From contig CP067345.1 of assembly GCA_020641055.1 (NCBI GenBank), positions 2,721,317 to 2,785,316 of the forward strand: a stretch of 64,000 bases of DNA. Direction: 5' to 3'. The position numbers and the translations under genes are program-made. Source of the stretch: Clostridioides sp. ES-S-0010-02. Its GTDB lineage: Bacteria; Bacillota; Clostridia; Peptostreptococcales; Peptostreptococcaceae. Under the pieces are notes generated by a model. It was not told the origin of the DNA, made no database searches, and worked only from the letters and a program-made list of their open reading frames with translations. Positions 4,733-39,276 of the stretch are shown here, piece after piece; positions within the stretch are counted from its first letter, which is position 1, and every line of letters begins with the position of its first letter.

Positions 4733-6430
4733 TTATTTTAATTTTGATACCATAATATCTATATATTCTTTTAAACCTCTAAGCTTTTCATCTGCTTCAG
4801 CATCACTAGTTCCTTTTACAGCTATATAAAATTTCAGCTTTGGCTCTGTCCCAGATGGTCTTATAGCTACCCAAGACTCATCTTCCAAGAAATATTTTAA
4901 AACATCAGATTTAGGGAGATTATCTACACCATTTTTGTAGTCTTTTTTATCAATTACCTTTATATTATTTATACAATCAATTTGATTTTCTCTAAAATAA
5001 GATATTATCTCTTTTATTTTTTCCACACCTTCTATACCTTTTAAAGTTAAAGATATAGTCTGTTCTTTAAAGAATCCATATTTCTTATATAGTTCTATTA
5101 AGCCTTCATATAAGCTCATGCCTTTTGAATAGTAAAATGCTGCCATTTCAGATATTAATAATGATGAAACAACACCGTCTTTATCTCTTGCATGAGTTCC
5201 AACTAAATAACCATAACTTTCTTCATATCCAAATACATAATTTCTATCTTTATTTTCTTCAAATAATTTTATTTTTTCACCAATAAATTTAAAACCTGTA
5301 AGAACATTTAGTACATCAACATTATTTTCTTTTGCTATATCCGCTCCAAATTCTGATGTAACTATAGTTTTTATCATTGTAGGATTTTCTTTTAATTGAT
5401 TATTTTCTTTTAAGCCTTCTATTATATAGTGTGTCAACATTCCACCAATTTGATTCCCTGTAAGTAATACATATTCCCCTGTAGTGGTTCTTACAGCTAC
5501 ACCTACTCTATCACAATCTGGGTCAGTTGCTATTACAAGGTCTGCTCCTTTTTCTTTTGCAAGCAATATTCCTCTGTTTAAAGCTTTTTTCTCTTCTGGA
5601 TTTGGGTAGTCAAGCCCTGCAAAATTTGGGTCTGGATTTTCTTCTTCTGGAACCACTAATATGTTTTCAAATCCTACTTCTTTTAATGCTCTTCTTATTG
5701 GAATATTGCCAGTTCCACAAAGAGGTGTATAAACTATTTTTAAATTTTTACCTACGCTTTTTACTAAATCTTTTCTTATAACTTGACTTTTTACAGCTTC
5801 TATAAATTCAGTATCCTGTGTTTCGTCCAATAAGACTACTAAATTTTTATTAGCTTCATTTAAAGTTGGTATTATACTATAATCATGTATGCTATTTACT
5901 TTTTCTGTTATTGCATTTGCAATATCTGGCATAACTTGTGCCCCATCTTCCCAGTATACTTTGTATCCATTGTATTCAGGTGGATTATGGCTAGCTGTTA
6001 TAACTATCCCTGCTATTGCATTTAGATTTCTAACAGCAAAGGACAATTCTGGAGTAGTTCTTAAACTATCAAATATATATGCCTTTATACCACACGCTGC
6101 TAATGTATTTGCAGATTCTATACAAAATTCTCTAGATTTATGTCTATTATCATGAGCTATTACTACGCCCCTATTTTTTTCTTCCTCTGTAGTATTTTCT
6201 AGTATATAGTTTGCCAATCCAAAAGTAGCTCTTCTAACTGTATATTTGTTAATTCTATTAGTTCCTGCTTCAATTACACCTCTAAGACCAGCCGTTCCAA
6301 ATTCTAAATCTTTATAAAATCTATCTTCTATCTCTTTTTCATTATCTTTTATTTTATCTAATTCTAGTTTTGTATCTTCATCAAAATATGAACTCTTTAC
6401 CCATTCTTCATAAGTTTTAGTATAATCCAT
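4733..6430 (-). CDS. pgcA: Alpha-phosphoglucomutase (PgcA-like)
   Basis: Interconverts glucose-1-phosphate and glucose-6-phosphate, feeding UDP-glucose and surface polysaccharide synthesis. It has the 565-residue, four-domain alpha-D-phosphohexomutase layout: phosphoserine loop TASHNPPEYNGYK (~residue 143), Mg-binding DPDCDRVG (~303), sugar-binding GYEESYGYLVG (~400) and phosphate-binding RPSGTEPKLKFY near the C-terminus. Length and motifs match Bacillus PgcA rather than the shorter GlmM. The ATG at 6430 follows AGGGAGGATTTTATT. It is separated by 62 bases from the upstream SGNH esterase gene on the same strand and may share its transcript. Phosphomannomutase activity is possible. Confidence 0.9.
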   Translation of the reverse strand: MDYTKTYEEWVKSSYFDEDTKLELDKIKDNEKEIEDRFYKDLEFGTAGLRGVIEAGTNRINKYTVRRATFGLANYILENTTEEEKNRGVVIAHDNRHKSREFCIESANTLAACGIKAYIFDSLRTTPELSFAVRNLNAIAGIVITASHNPPEYNGYKVYWEDGAQVMPDIANAITEKVNSIHDYSIIPTLNEANKNLVVLLDETQDTEFIEAVKSQVIRKDLVKSVGKNLKIVYTPLCGTGNIPIRRALKEVGFENILVVPEEENPDPNFAGLDYPNPEEKKALNRGILLAKEKGADLVIATDPDCDRVGVAVRTTTGEYVLLTGNQIGGMLTHYIIEGLKENNQLKENPTMIKTIVTSEFGADIAKENNVDVLNVLTGFKFIGEKIKLFEENKDRNYVFGYEESYGYLVGTHARDKDGVVSSLLISEMAAFYYSKGMSLYEGLIELYKKYGFFKEQTISLTLKGIEGVEKIKEIISYFRENQIDCINNIKVIDKKDYKNGVDNLPKSDVLKYFLEDESWVAIRPSGTEPKLKFYIAVKGTSDAEADEKLRGLKEYIDIMVSKLK

Positions 6431-21543: not shown

Positions 21544-22533
21544 TTATTTCAAGAATGACATCATACTTCTTAAATTTCTACCAACTTCAGCTATTTCTGT
21601 AGCATATTCTGCTTCTCTAGTTTTTAGGAAGTTTTCACGCCCTTCTTCATTTTCTTTAATCCATGCCTTAGCAAATTTTCCATTTTGTATATCTTCTAAT
21701 ACATCCTGCATACCTTGTTTTGCTGCATCAGTTATTACTCTTTTACCAGATACATAATCTCCATATTCTGCTGTATCACTTATGCTGTATCTCATTCTTT
21801 CAAATCCACCTTCATATATAAGGTCAACTATTAGTTTCATTTCATGTAGACATTCAAAATATGCTACTTCCTTTTGATACCCTGCATCTACAAGTGTCTT
21901 ATATCCTAATTTTATAAGTTCACTTATACCACCACAAAGTACTGATTGCTCTCCAAATAAGTCAGTTTCTGTTTCTTCTTTAAAAGTAGTTTCTAAAACA
22001 CCTGCTCTTGTAGCTCCTATTCCTTTTGCATATGCCAAAACTGTCTCTGTGGCTTTTTTAGTGTAATCTTGATATACTGCAAACAATGCTGGAACTCCAC
22101 TTCCTTTAGTAAATACATTTCTAACTAAGTGACCAGGTCCTTTAGGAGCTACCATTACAACATCAACAAATTCTGGTGGTTGTACTTGATTATAGTGTAT
22201 ATTGAATCCATGTGCAAATGCTAATGTTTGACCTTCTTTTAAATTATCTCTAACGCTTTCTTCATAAACTTTCTTTTGCTTTTCATCAGGCATTAACAAC
22301 ATTGTTAAATCACTTTCTCTCGTAGCCTCTGCTACACTTTTTACTTCAAATCCATCTTCCTTTGCTTTTTGCGCTGACTTACTTCCATCATAAAGTCCTA
22401 TCACTACATCCACACCATTATCTCTAAGATTTTGTGCATGTGCATGACCTTGACTTCCATATCCTAAAACTGCAACCTTTTTATTTTTTAAAACCTCTAA
22501 ATTTACATCATTTTCATAATACATCTTTGCCAT
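21544..22533 (-). CDS. ilvC: Ketol-acid reductoisomerase IlvC
   Basis: Converts acetolactate and acetohydroxybutyrate to dihydroxy acids using Mg and NAD(P)H. It is a class I enzyme of 329 residues: Rossmann motif [13 protein letters not shown] (~24), MAPKGPGH (~130), and the knotted C-terminal domain with metal ligands in [12 protein letters not shown] (~190) and [14 protein letters not shown] (~225). The ATG at 22533 follows TGGGAGGAAGTAAAG. Second in the order small subunit - ilvC - ilvB; ilvD is not in this window. Confidence 0.96.
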
Positions 22534-23172: not shown

Positions 23173-23227
23173 AAAAAAACTTTCATCTTTATAAGCAATA
23201 TAAATATTACTTATAAGGACGAAAGTT
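23173..23227 (-). terminator. Regulated terminator of the ilv T-box
   Basis: AACTTTC-TC-TTATAAG pairs with CTTATAA-GA-GAAAGTT, followed by TTTTTTTA on the minus strand. It lies directly after the T-box sequence and about 75 bases before the small-subunit start. Confidence 0.9.
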
Positions 23228-23503
23228 AAATTCCGCGGTACCACCTTATTTGTAGATATAAAAAATATATCTACCACTCTTTTTTCAGGTCGGGTAATTG
23301 ATTACCTTAACCTTAGCCATATAACGTTGGCAGACGTTTGTACTTACTAAAATATATTCAGTACAAAAGCTCCAGAGTGATCATTATACTACTGTTAACA
23401 CCAATTCTCAGCAACATTGGTTCTCTGTAGATAACTCTATTAGTATTGTTGTCTCTGTCATTGCTTTTATCTATCTAATTTTTTTAACTTTGTTTTGCTG
23501 TTA
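23173..23503 (-). promoter_or_regulatory. T-box riboswitch, isoleucine-type specifier, controlling the ilv operon
   Basis: The RNA leader reads right to left. Stem I is bounded by CAGAG / CTCTG, and its internal loop contains AATGATCA. Reading the specifier before the conserved purine gives AUC, isoleucine (plus-strand 23379-23381). The distal loop has GAGAACCAATG / GAGAATTGG. The T-box itself, GGTGGTACCGCG, is at 23245-23234, followed by an overlapping terminator (23227-23173). Uncharged tRNA-Ile would pair with AUC and the T-box UGGU bulge, favour the antiterminator, and switch on the ACT-subunit gene, ilvC and ilvB. Confidence 0.93.
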
Positions 23504-32916: not shown

Positions 32917-33585
32917 CTATTTTCTTCTTTTAATTAATTCTTTTTTTATTTCATCAATTTCAACACCTTTTTCTATCATTAAAACCAATGTATGATATAC
33001 TAAATCACTAATCTCATAAATAAGTTCACTTTTATCTTCATTTTTTGAGGCTATAATTACTTCACTGCTTTCTTCTCCAACTTTTTTAAGAATTTTATCT
33101 AAACCTTTGTCAAATAGATAGTTAGTATAAGACCCCTCAATAGGATTGTTTTTTCTTTCATTTATTAAATCATATAATTCTTTTAATGTATTTTTTTGTA
33201 CTTCAAAGTCAATTTTATCAGTATCATCAAATAAATCTCTATAGAAACAAGAGTAATTACCTGTATGGCAAGCTACACCTGTTTGTTCAACTAAAAGTAA
33301 TATTGTATCTACATCACAATCATAAGAAATCTTGACCACTTTTTGAATATTTCCAGATGTCTCACCTTTAACCCATAATTCTTGTCTACTTCTGCTAAAG
33401 TAACAAGCTATTTTGTCTTTTAAAGTTTTCTTTATAGACTCCTCATTCATATATGCTAACATCAATACATCTTTACTTATTACATCCTGAACAACAGCAG
33501 GAACTAATCCTTTATCATCAAATTTTACATTTTTTATAAATTCTTCAAATTTTTCACTGCATACATTATTACATTTATCATTCAT
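32917..33585 (-). CDS. hisI: Bifunctional phosphoribosyl-AMP cyclohydrolase / phosphoribosyl-ATP pyrophosphatase HisIE
   Basis: Carries out steps 2 and 3 of histidine synthesis. Residues ~20-120 are the HisI cyclohydrolase with zinc Cys motif [11 protein letters not shown] (~97). Residues ~130-222 are the HisE pyrophosphatase with [20 protein letters not shown]. The fusion, 222 residues, is the common two-domain form. It is the last gene of the operon, 28 bases after hisF. The ATG at 33585 has AAGGAGATTGG upstream. Confidence 0.95.
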
Positions 33586-33613
33586 TTTTCCAATCTCCTT
33601 ATAGATATTTAAT

Positions 33614-34372
33614 TTATAATCTTACTTCTACACCCATTTCTTTTAAATACTTTTTCAAATCCTTTATTTTTATCTCTCCAAAATGAAAAACAGATGCTGC
33701 TAAGATTCCATCTACATTAGATTCTTTGACTGCTTCATAGAAATCTTCCATTTTCCCAGCCCCTCCAGATGCTATAACAGGTACATTTACTAAAGATGTT
33801 ATTTTTGACAGTAACTCTATATCGTATCCATTTTTCATTCCATCTTCATCCATACTATTTACAACAATCTCTCCAGCTCCAAGTTCAACACCTTTGACTG
33901 CCCATTCAATTGCATCTAAATCTGTTTTCTCTCTACCGCCTTTTACATATACACTCCATGAACCCGCTTCATTTTTTTTTGCATCTATTGATAAAACTAC
34001 ACATTGTGCACCAAACTTTAGTGAGGCTTCTCTTATTAATTCGGGATTTTTTACTGCTGATGAATTTATAGAAACTTTATCTGCACCTTTTCTTAAAATA
34101 TTAGTAAAGTCTTCTAATTTATTTACTCCTCCACCTACACAAAATGGAATATTTATATTTTCTGCAACTTTAGATACAAATTCCAAAGATGTCTTTCTTT
34201 CTTCATTTGATGCAGTTATATCATAAAATACAAGTTCATCTGCGCCACAGTCACTATAAAATTTTCCAAGGACTTCTGGACTATCCACATCCACTATATC
34301 TGTAAATTTTTTCCCTTTTACAACTCTTCCATTTCGTACATCTAAACATGGTATTATTCTTCTAGTAAGCAT
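33614..34372 (-). CDS. hisF: Imidazole glycerol phosphate synthase cyclase subunit HisF
   Basis: A (beta/alpha)8 barrel of 252 residues that, with ammonia from HisH, forms IGP and AICAR. Motifs: [17 protein letters not shown] at the N-terminus (catalytic Asp11), FCVGGGVN phosphate loop (~77), and [14 protein letters not shown] with the second catalytic Asp (~130), then VIASGGAG (~198). It overlaps the end of hisA by 19 bases. The expected complex partner hisH lies two genes upstream in the same operon. Confidence 0.96.
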
Positions 34373-35076
34373 AGTTGTTGAGCCTCCTTAAAGTCTATCT
34401 TCTTATCATAAAGTGCTTTACCTATTATTGCTCCATATAAGTTCATATCTTTAAGTTTTTTAATATCTTCAATAGAAGTCACTCCCCCAGAAGCAATAAC
34501 ATTTAAAGATGTCTCTTTTGATATTTTTTCATATATATCAAAGTTTGGACCTTGAAGCATACCATCTTTTGATATGTCTGTATAAACAATCGTCTTTACT
34601 CCTATTTTTTCAAGTTGTTTACATAAAGTCAGAGAATCTACATTGCTTACAACTTCCCAACCTCTAACCGCTACCTTTCCATTTTTAGCATCAATTGAAA
34701 TAACAATTTTTTCTTGATATTCATTAACCAACTCTTCAACTAACTCCATATTTTCAATTGCGATACTCCCAAGTATCACTCTAGTAACACCTGCTTTTAT
34801 TAAACTTTGAACTTTCTCCTTATCTCTAACCCCTCCACCTACTTGAATAGGTATTTTTATATTGTTTGCTATATTTTCAATTGTTTTTGTATTTACACCA
34901 AATTCACTTCTAGCTCCATTTAAATCTACTATATGTATATATTCTGCACCTTCATTTTTCCATTTATATGCTACTTCTAATGGATTATCATAATATACAT
35001 TTACTTTGTCAAAATCACCTTGAGTTAATCTTACACACTTGTTATCCTTTATATCTATTGCTGGAAATATTATCAT
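34354..35076 (-). CDS. hisA: ProFAR isomerase HisA
   Basis: A 240-residue (beta/alpha)8 barrel that isomerises ProFAR to PRFAR. Motifs: [19 protein letters not shown] with catalytic Asp8, QVGGGVRD phosphate loop (~79), [14 protein letters not shown] with catalytic Asp (~128), and VIASGGV (~170). It overlaps hisH by 4 bases and hisF by 19, so the three are translated in close coupling. No tryptophan-pathway fusion is present. Confidence 0.96.
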
Positions 35077-35678
35077 TTTATCATCTCCCCATATGCTCTT
35101 AATATATTTAAACCTACTTCTCCACTTTTTTCTGGATGAAATTGTATACCATATACATTATCTTTTCTAACTATTGCTGGAATCTTCTTCTCATACTCTG
35201 AAAACGCAACAAGTTCTTCATTTGATGAATTTGCATAATATGAATGAACAAAGTATACATAGTCATCTTCTTTAATATATTTAAGAATATCATCATTTTT
35301 CTTATTAAATTTTAGATTATTCCATCCCATATGTGGAACTTTTAAACTTATATCCAGTTTATCAATGCTACCTTCTATAAGACCTAACCCTTCATATTCT
35401 CCATATTCATAGCTTTTTTCATAAAGTAATTGCATGCCTAAACATATGCCTATTAAAAACTTTCCCTTTGACACATGTTCTTTTATTATTGGCACCAAAT
35501 CTAGCTTATTTAAAGCATTTATAGAATCTCTAAAAGCTCCAACACCTGGAAGTATTAGTGAATTTGCCTCCTTTATTTCATTTAAATTGTTAGAAATTTT
35601 AGTTTCTATTCCAGCCTTCTTAAAACCTCTAGATACAGAATCTATATTTCCTAGACCATAATCTACTATTATATTCAT
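35073..35678 (-). CDS. hisH: Imidazole glycerol phosphate synthase glutaminase subunit HisH
   Basis: A class I glutamine amidotransferase of 201 residues supplying ammonia to HisF. The nucleophile Cys is in IGICLGMQLL (~79), and the catalytic His-x-Glu is in IQFHPEKSG (~183). N-terminal DYGLGNIDSV and LPGVGAFRD are typical. It sits 1 base after hisB and overlaps hisA by 4 bases. Confidence 0.96.
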   Translation of the reverse strand: MNIIVDYGLGNIDSVSRGFKKAGIETKISNNLNEIKEANSLILPGVGAFRDSINALNKLDLVPIIKEHVSKGKFLIGICLGMQLLYEKSYEYGEYEGLGLIEGSIDKLDISLKVPHMGWNNLKFNKKNDDILKYIKEDDYVYFVHSYYANSSNEELVAFSEYEKKIPAIVRKDNVYGIQFHPEKSGEVGLNILRAYGEMIK

Positions 35679-35679
35679 T

Positions 35680-36258
35680 TTATAAGACCCCCTTTGAAGA
35701 TGCTATTTCATTGGAAATTACTTCGCTACCTTCTTTCAATGCTCTTGCAAATGCTTTAAAAATACTTTCTATTTTGTGATGGTCATTTTCTCCATACAAA
35801 AGATTAATATGTAAAGTTACTCTAGATTCATTTACAAAAGCTCTAAAAAATTCTTTAAAACATTGAGTACTCATACTACCAATCGTTTGAGTATCAAACT
35901 TTGCATTAAATACAAGATATGGTCTGTTGCTTATATCAATAGACACCATGGATAAAGATTCATCCATAGGTATGTAGATAGTAGAATATCTTCTTATTCC
36001 TTTTTTATCCCCTAAAGCATTTTTAAATGCCTCTCCTACAGCTATACCTATGTCCTCCACACTATGATGGTCATCTACATATATATCTCCTTTACAAATA
36101 ATCTTTAAATCAAACTTACCATGAAACGCCATTAAAGTAAGCATATGGTCTAAAAATCCAATTCCAGTATCTACCTCAACTTTTCCAGTACCATCAATGT
36201 TTAGTTCTACTAAAATCTGTGTTTCAAGTGTATTTCTTTCTATCTTCCAAACTCTCAT
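35680..36258 (-). CDS. hisB: Imidazoleglycerol-phosphate dehydratase HisB
   Basis: A 192-residue single-function manganese dehydratase. It has the two HH motifs of the duplicated fold, DDHHSVEDIGIAVGEA (~63) and GENDHHKIESIFKAFARAL (~157), plus GIGFLDHMLTL (~33). Unlike enterobacterial HisB it lacks the N-terminal histidinol-phosphatase domain, and no separate phosphatase gene is in this operon. It begins 2 bases after hisC. Confidence 0.96.
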   Translation of the reverse strand: MRVWKIERNTLETQILVELNIDGTGKVEVDTGIGFLDHMLTLMAFHGKFDLKIICKGDIYVDDHHSVEDIGIAVGEAFKNALGDKKGIRRYSTIYIPMDESLSMVSIDISNRPYLVFNAKFDTQTIGSMSTQCFKEFFRAFVNESRVTLHINLLYGENDHHKIESIFKAFARALKEGSEVISNEIASSKGVL

Positions 36259-36260
36259 AC

Positions 36261-37310
36261 CTAATTCTCCTTTTGAAAAATATCTTTTATAGCATTTGCA
36301 AACATAATATTTTCTTCTTTATCACCAATTGTAACTCTATAATAATTTTCTAGTTTTCCACTAAACTTTCTTATTAGTACTCCTCTATCAATCAGCTTTT
36401 GTGATAAATTTTCTATCTCAGAGTAAAATAATATAAAGTTTGCTTGTGACTCATACGCTTTGATACCCATATCAATTATTTCTTTATACAATTTTGCTCT
36501 TTCTTTTTTTACTTCATCTATATAGGACTTAACTACTTCTTTATTTTTCAATGCTCTTGTAGCAATGAAATCGGACAATGAATTTAAGTTATATGGAGGT
36601 CTTACCTTCTCAACAGAGTTTATCAAACTACTATTAGATAGCATATATCCAGTTCTTATCCCAGCTAATCCAAATGCCTTTGATAGAGTTCTAAGAACGA
36701 TTAAGTTTTCATACTCAAAAACATTCTCTAACATGCTTTCTTCCCCAAAATCCATATATGCTTCATCTAAAACTACTAAACTGTTAGTTGAGTTTAAAAG
36801 TTTTATTATGTCTTCTCTTTTAAGTATTGCCCCTGTTGGATTATTAGGATTACAAACAATTACTATCTTTGGATTATTTTCTTTTACTGTTTCAATTACA
36901 TCATCTATATTTATAACTAAATTTTCATCACTCTCAACACCTATAAACTTTGAACCATTTATCTGACTGTATATAGAGTACATGCTAAAACTTGGAGAAA
37001 AACTTAATATTGTTTCATCTTTATCTACAAAAGTATGTATTATCAAATCAATTATTTCACTTGAACCATTTCCTACTAAAAGGTTTTTCTTACTTACTCC
37101 AGAAATATCTATGTAATTTATTATAGACTCTTTTAAATCGCTATAAGAGTCTTCAGGATATAAATTTAAATCTATATCGCTATCTCCAAGCTCTTTAACA
37201 AGATACTTGAACAACTTTTTATTTCCTTCATTTGCATCAAGCTTTACCTTACAATTTACATGATTTGGTTCGTATCCCTTTAGTTCTCTTATACTTTCTT
37301 TTTCTCTCAA
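36261..37310 (-). CDS. hisC: Histidinol-phosphate aminotransferase HisC
   Basis: A PLP enzyme of 349 residues, fold type I. PLP-binding Lys is in LRTLSKAFGLAGIRTGY (~210); VCNPNNPTGA (~150) and VLDEAYMDF (~183) are present. The start is TTG at 37310, supported by GGAGAGG 6 bases upstream, with no better ATG nearby. It follows hisG by 34 bases, the place where hisD stands in many clostridial operons; there is no room for hisD here. Confidence 0.95.
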   Translation of the reverse strand: MREKESIRELKGYEPNHVNCKVKLDANEGNKKLFKYLVKELGDSDIDLNLYPEDSYSDLKESIINYIDISGVSKKNLLVGNGSSEIIDLIIHTFVDKDETILSFSPSFSMYSIYSQINGSKFIGVESDENLVINIDDVIETVKENNPKIVIVCNPNNPTGAILKREDIIKLLNSTNSLVVLDEAYMDFGEESMLENVFEYENLIVLRTLSKAFGLAGIRTGYMLSNSSLINSVEKVRPPYNLNSLSDFIATRALKNKEVVKSYIDEVKKERAKLYKEIIDMGIKAYESQANFILFYSEIENLSQKLIDRGVLIRKFSGKLENYYRVTIGDKEENIMFANAIKDIFQKEN

Positions 37311-37343
37311 TCTAAACCTCTCCTTGTCAATTTTAATTATATT

Positions 37344-37970
37344 TTAGTTATCAATTTCCTTAAACAAACGAATTATATTTTGAATTTGTTCATACTTAAA
37401 TCTATAACTAGCTCTATTTGATATAATCCTAGCGCTTATATCGCATATATCTTCTAATATTTCAAGTCCATTTGCTTTAAGTGTATTACCTGTCTCAACT
37501 ATATCAACAATTACATCTGATAAGCCTACTATTGGAGCTAGTTCAACAGAACCATTTAGTTTTATTATTTCAATTTTTTGACCTTTTTCTTTAAAGTATT
37601 TTTTTGCTATATTTGGGTACTTTGTTGCCACTTTTAAATATTCATCTTTTCTATATATGCTATCTCCCTTTAATCCTGCTACTGCAAATTTACACTTTCC
37701 AAAACCTAAATCATATATTTCATATACATCTGTTTCATTTTCTAAAATAGTATCTTTCCCTGCTATACCAAGGTCAGCAACTCCTTTTTCAACATAGGTA
37801 ACCACATCTGATGGTTTTACATGTATATATATGATTTTATTTTTTTCATCTTTAAAAATTAACTTTCTTGTATCAGTATCTATACTGTCTCCCAAGCCCA
37901 TTTTTTTAAATTTTTTAAATGATTCCCCTTCTATTCTTCCTTTTGCTAGTGCTATAGTTAAATAATCCAA
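37344..37970 (-). CDS. hisG: ATP phosphoribosyltransferase catalytic subunit HisG (short form)
   Basis: The first committed enzyme of histidine synthesis. The 208-residue short form lacks the C-terminal regulatory domain and needs HisZ, encoded just upstream. Motifs: LAKGRIEGESFKKF at the N-terminus, ADLGIAGKDTILE (~65), and VDIVETGNTLKANGL (~150). The start is TTG at 37970 with AAAAGGAGGTATTATT upstream, a strong signal. Feedback by histidine acts through the HisG-HisZ octamer in this enzyme type. Confidence 0.96.
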   Translation of the reverse strand: MDYLTIALAKGRIEGESFKKFKKMGLGDSIDTDTRKLIFKDEKNKIIYIHVKPSDVVTYVEKGVADLGIAGKDTILENETDVYEIYDLGFGKCKFAVAGLKGDSIYRKDEYLKVATKYPNIAKKYFKEKGQKIEIIKLNGSVELAPIVGLSDVIVDIVETGNTLKANGLEILEDICDISARIISNRASYRFKYEQIQNIIRLFKEIDN

Positions 37971-37991: not shown

Positions 37992-38936
37992 TTACTTATA
38001 TACATACTTCATTAGCTCATCAACACTTAATGTAAATCCAATAGCTGGAATTTCTTTTCCATACTCTTTAGTTAGAGAATCATATCTTCCACCGCTTAGA
38101 ATTTCTTTATATGAGTCTGGATAGTATCCTCTAAACATAACTCCTTCATAATAGTCAAGCATTGTAATCATTGATAAATCAAATCTAGCTTTATCTAAAA
38201 AATTACATTCCTCAATTAAATCGTTTATTTGTTTTAACTCTTCAAGTGCTTGTTTCATCTTATCATTACAATAGAATTTTTGCGCCTTTTCAATAACATT
38301 ATATAGATTACCTTGAAAACTTAAGATATTTGATAATAATTCTTTTACATCATTTTTAATTTTTAAATCTTCAATATATACTTTTAATTCATGGTTATTT
38401 TTGGTATATAATAAGTTTTTAATTTGATTTTCACAATTCTTATTCAATTTTAATTCCTCTAATAATCCATTAATATATTTACTACTCCCAACTTCCAAAA
38501 TGAAATTATTGTTGTACTTTTCAAGTATCTTAAGGGCCAATTTTACCACTTCTCTATCTGCTTCTACAGAAGATTCTCCTAAATACTCACAACCTATCTG
38601 TCTTATCTCTTTTATTCCAACTGTATTCTTATTTTTATATATAGATGAATTATAAAAAAGTTTAAGTTTTAAACCCTCTTCCCATCTTGGTATGAGGCTT
38701 TTTATTATACTTGTAGTTATATCAGCTCTTAACACCATTACTCTTCCATTTACAACCTTTACCATAGATTCTTTTGGGATTTTACTATTTATATTTGTAA
38801 ATTCATCATATTCTTCAAATAATTGTGGTTCTATTTGAAAATATTCTTCATCTAAGAAAAGCCTGTCTATTTCTCTTTTTAATTTGTATCTTTTTTTAGA
38901 ATAAATAACCTCATCTTCAATTCTTAAAAATTTCAT
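37992..38936 (-). CDS. hisZ: ATP phosphoribosyltransferase regulatory subunit HisZ
   Basis: A 314-residue paralogue of the histidyl-tRNA synthetase catalytic core without the anticodon-binding domain. It complexes with short HisG and confers histidine inhibition. Family traits include MVKVVNGRVMVLRADITTSI (motif 2 region), REIRQIGCEYLGES, and ILSGGRYDSLTKEYGKEIPAIGFTLSVDEL at the end. The ATG at 38936 follows GGGTGAGAGT. It is the first structural gene after the leader-peptide attenuator. Confidence 0.95.
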   Translation of the reverse strand: MKFLRIEDEVIYSKKRYKLKREIDRLFLDEEYFQIEPQLFEEYDEFTNINSKIPKESMVKVVNGRVMVLRADITTSIIKSLIPRWEEGLKLKLFYNSSIYKNKNTVGIKEIRQIGCEYLGESSVEADREVVKLALKILEKYNNNFILEVGSSKYINGLLEELKLNKNCENQIKNLLYTKNNHELKVYIEDLKIKNDVKELLSNILSFQGNLYNVIEKAQKFYCNDKMKQALEELKQINDLIEECNFLDKARFDLSMITMLDYYEGVMFRGYYPDSYKEILSGGRYDSLTKEYGKEIPAIGFTLSVDELMKYVYK

Positions 38937-38987: not shown

Positions 38988-39022
38988 TAAAAAAGCCATA
39001 TAGGCTTTATACCTATATGGCT
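38988..39022 (-). terminator. Attenuator terminator of the his operon
   Basis: AGCCATATAGG (39022-39012 on the minus strand), a 7-base loop and CCTATATGGCT (39004-38994), followed by TTTTTTATTG. It is a perfect 11-bp stem located between the leader peptide and hisZ (58 bases before its ATG). Confidence 0.92.
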
Positions 39023-39045
39023 ATAATTTTCTTTTAAAATTACTT

Positions 39046-39133
39046 CCCATCATAGATACAAGACCAATTACACTAAAAACAGGGCTTGTGTCTATGAATC
39101 AATTTCATATTACAATCCCTTTAATCTATGATG
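39046..39133 (-). promoter_or_regulatory. Mutually exclusive RNA pairings in the his leader
   Basis: The segment at 39048-39062 can pair in two ways. Its part 39048-39057 is exactly complementary to 39124-39133, which includes the end of the His-codon run. Its part 39051-39062 pairs 11 of 12 bases with 39085-39096, just after the leader stop. The two cannot form together, so a ribosome stalled on His codons would change the fold. How this feeds into the terminator at 39022-38988 was not resolved by eye. Confidence 0.65.
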
Positions 39134-39184
39134 ATGGTGATGATTTAATTTTATATTTAATTTTTCTACATTTAATCTCACCAT
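39110..39184 (-). CDS. his operon leader peptide, 24 aa with five consecutive His codons
   Basis: ATG at 39184 is preceded by GGGAGGAAATTATC, a strong ribosome binding site. The peptide reads MVRLNVEKLNIKLN, then HHHHH (codons CAT CAC CAT CAT CAT), then RLKGL and stop. The frame ends 88 bases before the attenuator terminator stem. It is the histidine counterpart of HisL in enteric bacteria: ribosome stalling at His codons when charged tRNA-His is scarce should prevent termination. The sequence is unrelated to enteric HisL and no T-box is present. Confidence 0.93.
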   Translation of the reverse strand: MVRLNVEKLNIKLNHHHHHRLKGL

Positions 39185-39247
39185 GATAATTTCCTCCCAA
39201 ATATTTTTTATTAATATTCTAAATTTACAGTTTTTTTATTACTATTA

Positions 39248-39276
39248 ATAATAATATACTTTTCAAAAATTGGCAA
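39248..39276 (-). promoter_or_regulatory. Probable promoter of the his operon
   Basis: TTGCCA (39276-39271), 17 bases, TATTAT (39253-39248) on the minus strand. Each differs from consensus by one base. Transcription would start about 57 bases before the leader-peptide ATG. Confidence 0.65.

Follow-up and report, generated by a model that had tools for sequence, protein, structure and literature searches.

A predicted histidine leader-peptide attenuator upstream of hisZ in Clostridioides and its likely place in a leader family re-coded for several amino acids

Results

The his leader locus

The window, i.e. the whole stretch of DNA analyzed here, comprises 64,000 nucleotides of Clostridioides sp. 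ES-S-0010-02 (contig CP067345.1, positions 2,721,317 to 2,785,316), the genome of which consists of one contig of 4.26 Mb. On the minus strand of the window (39276-38986), a promoter-like site, a Shine-Dalgarno sequence, a 24-codon ORF, alternative helices and a terminator reside upstream of a hisZ-like gene (Table 1), which scored 222.2 bits in the profile search with TIGR00443 and thus remained under the cut-off of 271.65. The hisD gene is located apart from the operon (C1:2712788-2713978 of the genome, approximately 45 kb from hisZ), and the family models run on this genome did not disclose a leader of the His-leader type at hisD.

The initial annotation had assigned a promoter, a Shine-Dalgarno sequence, an ORF of 24 codons with five His codons and an intrinsic terminator to this strand. 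All four were recovered as placed, the His codons CAT CAC CAT CAT CAT being codons 15-19 of the ORF. The promoter stands as a match to the consensus, a type of site which was no commoner in the region than expected from shuffles (4 found vs. 4.7 expected). By contrast, three terminator-like sites were found vs. 0.1 expected, all of them within the hairpin 39022-38994 (one on the opposite strand), which is followed by a T-run and lies about 55 nt upstream of the hisZ-like gene. The fold of the leader RNA reached -55.5 kcal/mol, a value as low as which was given by none of 200 shuffles (z -4.9).

Table 1. Features of the his leader and the adjacent his operon in the window
Feature	Position	Strand	Pairing or role	Basis
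Promoter-like site TTGCCA-17-TATTAT	39248-39276	-		consensus match only
Shine-Dalgarno sequence GGGAGG of the leader ORF	39193-39198	-		sequence
Leader ORF, 24 codons plus stop, MVRLNVEKLNIKLNHHHHHRLKGL	39110-39184	-		sequence
Segment 1 (CATCATAGAT, last His codons)	39124-39133	-	untranslated RNA: pairs with segment 4	fold
Segment 2 (AGGGATTGTAATATGAA, ORF end and stop)	39104-39120	-	upstream stall: pairs with segment 3	covariation
Segment 3 (TTCATAGACACAAGCCC)	39082-39098	-	partners 2 or 4
Segment 4 (GGTCTTGTATCTATGATGG)	39047-39065	-	partners 1, 3 or 5
A+T hairpin (helix H) in the interval between segments 4 and 5	39024-39042	-	would stack on the antiterminator	fold; columns not conserved
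Segment 5 (AGCCATATAGG)	39012-39022	-	5' arm of the terminator and 3' arm of the antiterminator	sequence, alignment
Segment 6	38994-39004	-	3' arm of the terminator, then T-run	sequence
hisZ-like gene	37992-38936	-	first regulated gene	best NCBIfam match TIGR00443
hisG-hisC-hisB-hisH-hisA-hisF-hisIE	32917-37970	-		profile search

Within the region of the leader start codon (39184-39142), ATGGTGAG can form a hairpin together with the first His codons, which might cap the translation of untranslated RNA. A second mini-ORF (MKLIHRHKPCF), which follows right after the leader stop codon in the window and its genus, was considered as a sensor and dismissed; L009 and L040 lack it in intact form, and the letters of its ATG and CAT are part of the helix 2:3.

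Elsewhere in the window, a T-box leader (RF00230, 139.7 bits) was detected at 23212-23470 on the minus strand. It lies upstream of the ORF 21544-22533, which we take by eye from its protein to be a gene for ketol-acid reductoisomerase (ilvC). At the gathering score this was the only T-box of the window, and none was found at the his leader.

Alternative pairings and ribosome position

The initial annotation had recognized two mutually exclusive pairings, both of which we confirmed: in one of them segment 4 joins segment 1 (the last His codons), in the other it joins segment 3. It had called the step leading from the hairpins to the terminator not obvious, and here it had missed the pairing of segment 2 with segment 3 and that of segment 4 with the 5' arm of the terminator. 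Our own first structural guess left segment 3 unpaired throughout and predicted control of the wrong sign, which was resolved by the addition of segment 2.

According to the proposed mechanism, a ribosome would stall on the first His codons when histidine is short and cover segment 1. Segment 2 would then fold onto segment 3 and, by occupying it, leave segment 4 unpaired, which could capture arm 5 of the terminator, whereupon transcription would enter hisZ. If histidine is ample, the ribosome would reach the stop codon and cover segment 2; segment 3 would take segment 4, and the free arm 5 would form the 5:6 terminator, stopping transcription. Untranslated leader RNA should lead to termination, too, since segment 4 is then bound by segment 1. 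That ribosomes stall, and what becomes of the polymerase in the cells, we infer from these pairings.

In the stall model, nascent RNA ending at arm 5 was folded with its upstream part masked as far as 12 nt downstream of the A-site codon. The downstream footprint of 12 nt is an assumption, as in the accessible text of PMC4833913, and the folding describes the equilibrium of a truncated RNA. In the stall scan, RNA lacking a ribosome gave a probability of 0.11 for the helix 4:5. When His 1, His 2 and His 3 were placed in the A-site, it amounted to 0.66, 0.48 and 0.47, respectively (0.62-0.66 over codons 14-15 and 0.47-0.48 over codons 16-17), and from codon 18 (His 4) through His 5 to the stop codon it was 0.16-0.18 (0.18 each at His 4, His 5 and the stop). 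As the His run comprises codons 15-19, its first three codons lie within the responsive range. The full scan revealed dips at codons 11, 12 and 13 (0.42, 0.10 and 0.09) and values of 0.61-0.64 for codons 1-10 as well, so that high antiterminator pairing is also reached outside the His codons of this leader. The model tells a stall on the first His codons from a finished or absent ribosome, not from a very early one.

The leader contains what is expected of an attenuator: a small ORF, predicted to be translated, which is preceded by a Shine-Dalgarno sequence and offers five His codons as sensors, an intrinsic terminator recognized by sequence before the first gene and, in silico, more antiterminator pairing at the sensor codons than at the stop codon or without a ribosome. 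It probably senses a shortage of histidine by means of stalled ribosomes.

Conservation among his leaders

A model built from eight his leaders (R1) was searched over 71 genomes of the window's family and matched 44 of them at E<=0.01, some via terminator-like false matches only. L085, L087, L088, L089, L092 and L093 look like such terminator-only matches and were regarded as false. The his alignment contained 27 leaders, 24 of which were distinct, situated upstream of hisZ-like genes or substrate-binding proteins; the one protein of the latter type that was tested, downstream of L040, belonged to family 3 by profile. L064 and L065 were judged in the alignment, L066 by its counterpart L180 among the named loci.

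A run of three to five His codons was present in all 27 leaders. In the helix 2:3, 97.6% of the cells were paired and three pairs had changed on both sides, which was matched by none of 500 shuffles. The helix 1:4 was paired in 95% of the cells of the 24 distinct leaders without covariation within the his set, and the helix 4:5 in 97.9% of the cells without double changes in this set. The A+T hairpin did not form a conserved set of columns in the alignment. The comparison of His runs and stems within the Peptostreptococcaceae, which the initial annotation had proposed, thus bore out the His run and the helix 2:3, but not a covariation of the helices 1:4 and 4:5 among his leaders.

Leaders with other codons

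Among the weaker R1 matches in the 71 family genomes, most of those read shared this layout but had different codons. YYYF.SYF leaders precede BrnQ-type carriers, a YYY.YY leader precedes a sodium symporter of the family SNF, YYYYY or FFF leaders precede an ABC permease, and an H.H leader precedes hisS (L074, by profile). Codons and genes matched by profile for His with hisS, for Tyr-Phe with aroE, aroC and DAHP synthase, and for Trp with TrpX. The BrnQ-type carriers behind some Tyr/Phe leaders gave a TIGR00796 match over the cut-off; since the name of this profile refers to branched-chain amino acids, codon and gene name disagree at these loci.

The window's genome has three members with His, Tyr (L117) and Phe (L120) codons, all of which were detected both with RF04312 (E<=0.01) and with a combined model (R2), whose training set includes these three members. 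In the region C1:3424920-3428704, which harbors L117 and L120, two ABC operons are neighbors and their permeases are identical in 299 of 300 residues. One permease lies behind the Phe leader (RFFSSQF), the near-identical one behind the Tyr leader (YYYYYSHYF). To judge by their codons and genes, the two leaders are a natural codon-switch pair.

R2 matched 46 of the 71 family genomes at E<=0.001, at least one of them (G036) falsely; its match L353 looks like a terminator only and was rejected. Among 391 genomes of the class, 15 were matched at E<=1e-4. The matches comprised 25 places, seven of which were already known (window's genome, G027 and G452) and excluded. Runs or clusters of His, Tyr, Phe or Leu occurred in all 18 new leaders. 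By eye, the His leaders precede hisZ- or hisS-like genes (L372 without a visible downstream gene) and the Tyr or Phe leaders symporters or ABC permeases. In a distant genome, L366 disclosed a five-His leader before a gene which by eye is hisD-like. Leaders with Leu runs (VLLLVADLI, VLLLLAELL; L338-L341, L364, L368) precede symporters of the SNF family, at L339 by profile and at the others by eye; those with VLLLLAELL found in the class-level search stand in front of a different symporter branch. As read from these runs, Leu is a fifth specificity of the scaffold.

A scan of the named genomes with the pattern of segments 4-5 yielded at least 80 loci, those listed belonging mostly to Enterococcus and its kin. 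At 75 of the 80 loci listed vs. 5 of 4000 shuffles, there was an ORF whose last eight residues included four or more Tyr/Phe. Where the downstream genes of the listed loci were profiled, they were aroE, DAHP synthase and aroC; others appeared by eye to be aroB-like, aroK-like or to encode TrpX-like proteins. L170 and L187 were taken as chance pattern matches.

Across 29 aligned members of the family, the helix 4:5 was paired in 94.3%, and in six of its pairs both partners had changed (reached by no more than 1 of 500 shuffles); the helices 3:4 and 5:6 jointly had 15 such pairs. Searched by sequence alone at E<0.001, the his hairpin found 8 of 28 clostridial Tyr/Phe leaders, 1 of 66 Trp leaders, and none of the 78 leaders of the pattern set or of the six Leu leaders. 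Because the similarity to the Trp, Leu and pattern leaders is weak, some branches may have converged; a common ancestry of all specificities, which we infer from the shared scaffold, is likely.

Relation to RF04312 and RF02863

The trpB motif (RF04312), with more than 900 representatives, has been described as a strong riboswitch candidate (PMC11109978). Its authors considered a possible antiterminator in the right shoulder of P1 and did not rule out a classic attenuator, and the accessible part of their account describes neither a uORF nor a codon run. The leader of the window aligned to RF04312 over its full length with 51.6 bits (E 1.5e-6 in 401 nt), and the genome-wide search with RF04312 found it at E 3.8e-6. 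Both share the hairpin 3:4, the linker and the terminator 5:6, and the two helices covary jointly. The gathering score of 59 was not reached; thus, the leader is a relative of RF04312, which was published as a riboswitch candidate, and not a filed member.

In 398 genomes of the phylum, RF04312 gave matches in 23 at E<=0.01, one of them over the cut-off, and most of these matches look like chance; L098 and L109 near contig ends had no usable flanks. Of 295 genomes from the order to which G338 belongs, 160 were matched at E<=0.001 and 52 contained a match over the cut-off. Seventy matches were analyzed for uORFs, 54 of them being those listed over the cut-off and 16 hand-picked below it. An ORF with a Shine-Dalgarno sequence, ATG and Trp within the last nine residues was present at 66 of the 70 loci vs. 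55 of 3500 shuffles of the upstream DNA (1.6%), and at least two Trp were present at 45 loci vs. 3 of 3500 shuffles. Usual endings of the uORFs were SWQNWRR and SWQSWRR. Downstream, TrpX-type binding proteins (L094 by its NF041285 profile, others by eye) and genes starting like trpB (L245, PF00291) were found. In the alignment of 29 members, in which the row of L240 is misaligned, 24 of the 50 paired columns were at least 90% identical and none of the 90 unpaired columns was at least 80% identical; the loop between segments 3 and 4 varied from 6 to 26 nt and the linker from 11 to 48 nt.

RF02863 (sRNA_2410) matched all seven enterococcal Tyr/Phe leaders tested, which are part of the enterococcal pattern loci, with 64 to 206 bits. 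Matching Tyr/Phe leaders were L139, L179, L172, L148, L150, L131, L123, L059 and L055; L059 and L055 are clostridial Tyr leaders, which scored 64.6 and 62.4 bits at a gathering score of 61. The Enterococcus locus L123 also harbors an RF04312 match (5437-5538, minus strand, 63.1 bits). The consensus of RF02863 resembles the leader of the window in having a helix 1:4 that encloses 2:3, followed by segments 3-6, but it is catalogued as a small RNA, and the search of the window leader with RF02863 was negative at E<=0.1. According to the accessible text of PMC5593968, sRNA_2410 of Enterococcus faecium gave two transcripts on Northern blots and was catalogued as sRNA. The RF02863 entry is probably a terminated leader.

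Stall scans over the family

The mean upstream pairing of arm 5 without a ribosome, at the first sensor codon and at the stop codon was 0.34, 0.57 and 0.32 in the His set (n=26), 0.35, 0.86 and 0.39 in the Tyr-Phe set (n=67), and 0.38, 0.74 and 0.34 in the Trp set (n=68). Excluded beforehand were L064 (His), L305 and L306 (Trp), ten loci without a detected terminator or ORF (Tyr), and L152. Pairing at the first sensor codon exceeded that at the stop codon in 21 of 26, 65 of 67 and 63 of 68 leaders, respectively, so five his leaders did not exhibit this difference. It peaked at approximately codon -1 to +3 relative to the first sensor codon. For early codons the means were 0.41 (His), 0.37 (Tyr-Phe) and 0.45 (Trp), values which were surpassed at the first sensor codon in 19 of 26, 64 of 67 and 62 of 68 leaders, with p-values that ignore relatedness.

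Fifteen further clostridial Tyr/Phe/Leu leaders showed a higher value at the sensor than at the stop codon in 14 cases, ten times by at least 0.1. For the 18 leaders of the class-level search, the numbers were 14 and 10, a difference that was not significant (p 0.14), with some arms misassigned. The scan of these more distant leaders has misassignments at least in L367, L056 and L339. A clearly reversed contrast was obtained with L358, L359, L372 and L373. In L358, L359 and L372 the leader ORF ends at segment 3, so that a ribosome at the stop codon would itself hide this segment; this branch may work differently.

Discussion

The his attenuator upstream of hisZ is real as far as the sequence tells, and it had already been predicted. 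The accessible text of PMC4833913 names it at hisZ of C. difficile and cites Lopatovskaya 2010 for such leaders in this species and in the B. cereus group; the basic finding is thus not new. His attenuators of Peptostreptococcaceae and Lutispora were predicted by Ashniev et al. 2022 (PMC9413887), where, in the text at hand, Clostridioides and relatives are listed under RNA attenuators and the number of His codons is given as three to five. His leaders of bacilli have been reported as well (PMC2965389). These predictions agree with ours in operon, organisms, His-rich leader peptide, terminator and antiterminator; in the accessible passages of PMC9413887 and PMC4833913 they are not tied to Tyr/Phe/Trp/Leu leaders, RF04312 or RF02863. 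Other uORF attenuators are treated in PMC8632094, in the accessible part of which 'trpB' is absent, and PMC3649979 reports 20 T-boxes in C. difficile, its main text being without 'leader peptide'. Among the matches listed in our literature search, which lay mostly outside the subscription journals, none connected the trpB motif or sRNA_2410 with leader peptides, apart from what PMC11109978 remarks. The initial annotation had called the arrangement unusual and perhaps new. In outline it was in print (PMC4833913, PMC9413887, as far as accessible) and its scaffold is common, while the switching logic is an addition. As far as our searches show, the full switching logic and the place within a family of several specificities, including RF04312 and RF02863, are new within the literature searched.

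The sequence of the his leader, its alternative pairings with their conservation, the covariation and the uORF enrichment are established. They make it very probable that the leader is a leader-peptide transcription attenuator on a scaffold common to Tyr/Phe/Trp/Leu leaders of Bacilli and Clostridia, including RF04312 and RF02863. Most of these leaders precede genes related to the amino acid they encode. T-boxes serve many amino-acid specificities with one scaffold. The family of the his leader resembles them in this respect, but would sense the occupancy of codons by the ribosome and not uncharged tRNA directly. In the enteric his leader, too, His codons and stall-driven antitermination are found; measured against its pairing scheme, the window leader differs in that segment 1 binds segment 4 across the enclosed hairpin 2:3. 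That the leader is independent of the enteric one, as initially proposed, fits the absence of an RF00514 match in the window at the gathering score and in Firmicutes according to the accessible text of PMC9413887.

The same structures could be read in other ways. A metabolite riboswitch formed by segments 3-6, as proposed for the trpB motif, with an incidental small ORF, would agree with the publication of RF04312 as a strong candidate (PMC11109978, in its accessible part) and with the stable covarying hairpins. It is hard to reconcile with sensor-codon uORFs at nearly all RF04312 loci analyzed and pattern loci listed and with codons that vary between groups with different downstream genes, and the variable loops and unpaired columns give no sign of a conserved pocket; we deem it highly improbable. 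Even less credence is given to a constitutive partial terminator with control by HisR, T-box or CodY. Promoter and terminator are indeed consensus matches only, but the HisR profile TIGR02531 had no match in the genome, while the same search was positive in B. subtilis, the only T-box of the window at the gathering score lies ahead of another ORF, and the helix 2:3 covaries, as does 4:5 in the wider family. This also agrees with the initial view, which set the leader apart from T-box or HisR control. A His-specific attenuator that arose by convergence would have the right mechanism and resemble the Tyr/Phe/Trp/Leu leaders by chance. The weak sequence-only similarity to Trp, Leu and enterococcal leaders and the score below the RF04312 gathering score would suit it. 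On the other hand, the his-only model R1 found Tyr and Phe leaders in the family genomes at E of about 1e-7 to 1e-3, RF04312 retrieved the his leader genome-wide, and letters of the hairpin are common to his and other leaders, which leaves convergence unlikely.

A ribosome-mediated His attenuator, as the initial annotation had held, is therefore the best reading, given the conserved His run, the conserved alternative helices with covariation in 2:3 and the antiterminator favored by a stall. Leaders that combine this scaffold with codons for other amino acids are common in the family to which the window's genome belongs and in the order of G338. We consider it likely that a single leader scaffold has repeatedly been re-coded in Bacilli and Clostridia (His/Tyr/Phe/Trp/Leu) as a ribosome-sensed counterpart of the T-box, RF04312 being a Trp (and aromatic) attenuator and RF02863 a terminated Tyr/Phe leader.

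With this, the his leader gains a complete switching logic, and two Rfam entries, RF04312 and RF02863, gain a likely function. For a riboswitch candidate with more than 900 members, translation-coupled attenuation is offered as an answer, which is testable at once. The data suggest that, in some Firmicutes, T-boxes coexist with peptide-coded attenuation directed at several amino acids, and that specificity has been changed by codon swaps on a fixed RNA scaffold.
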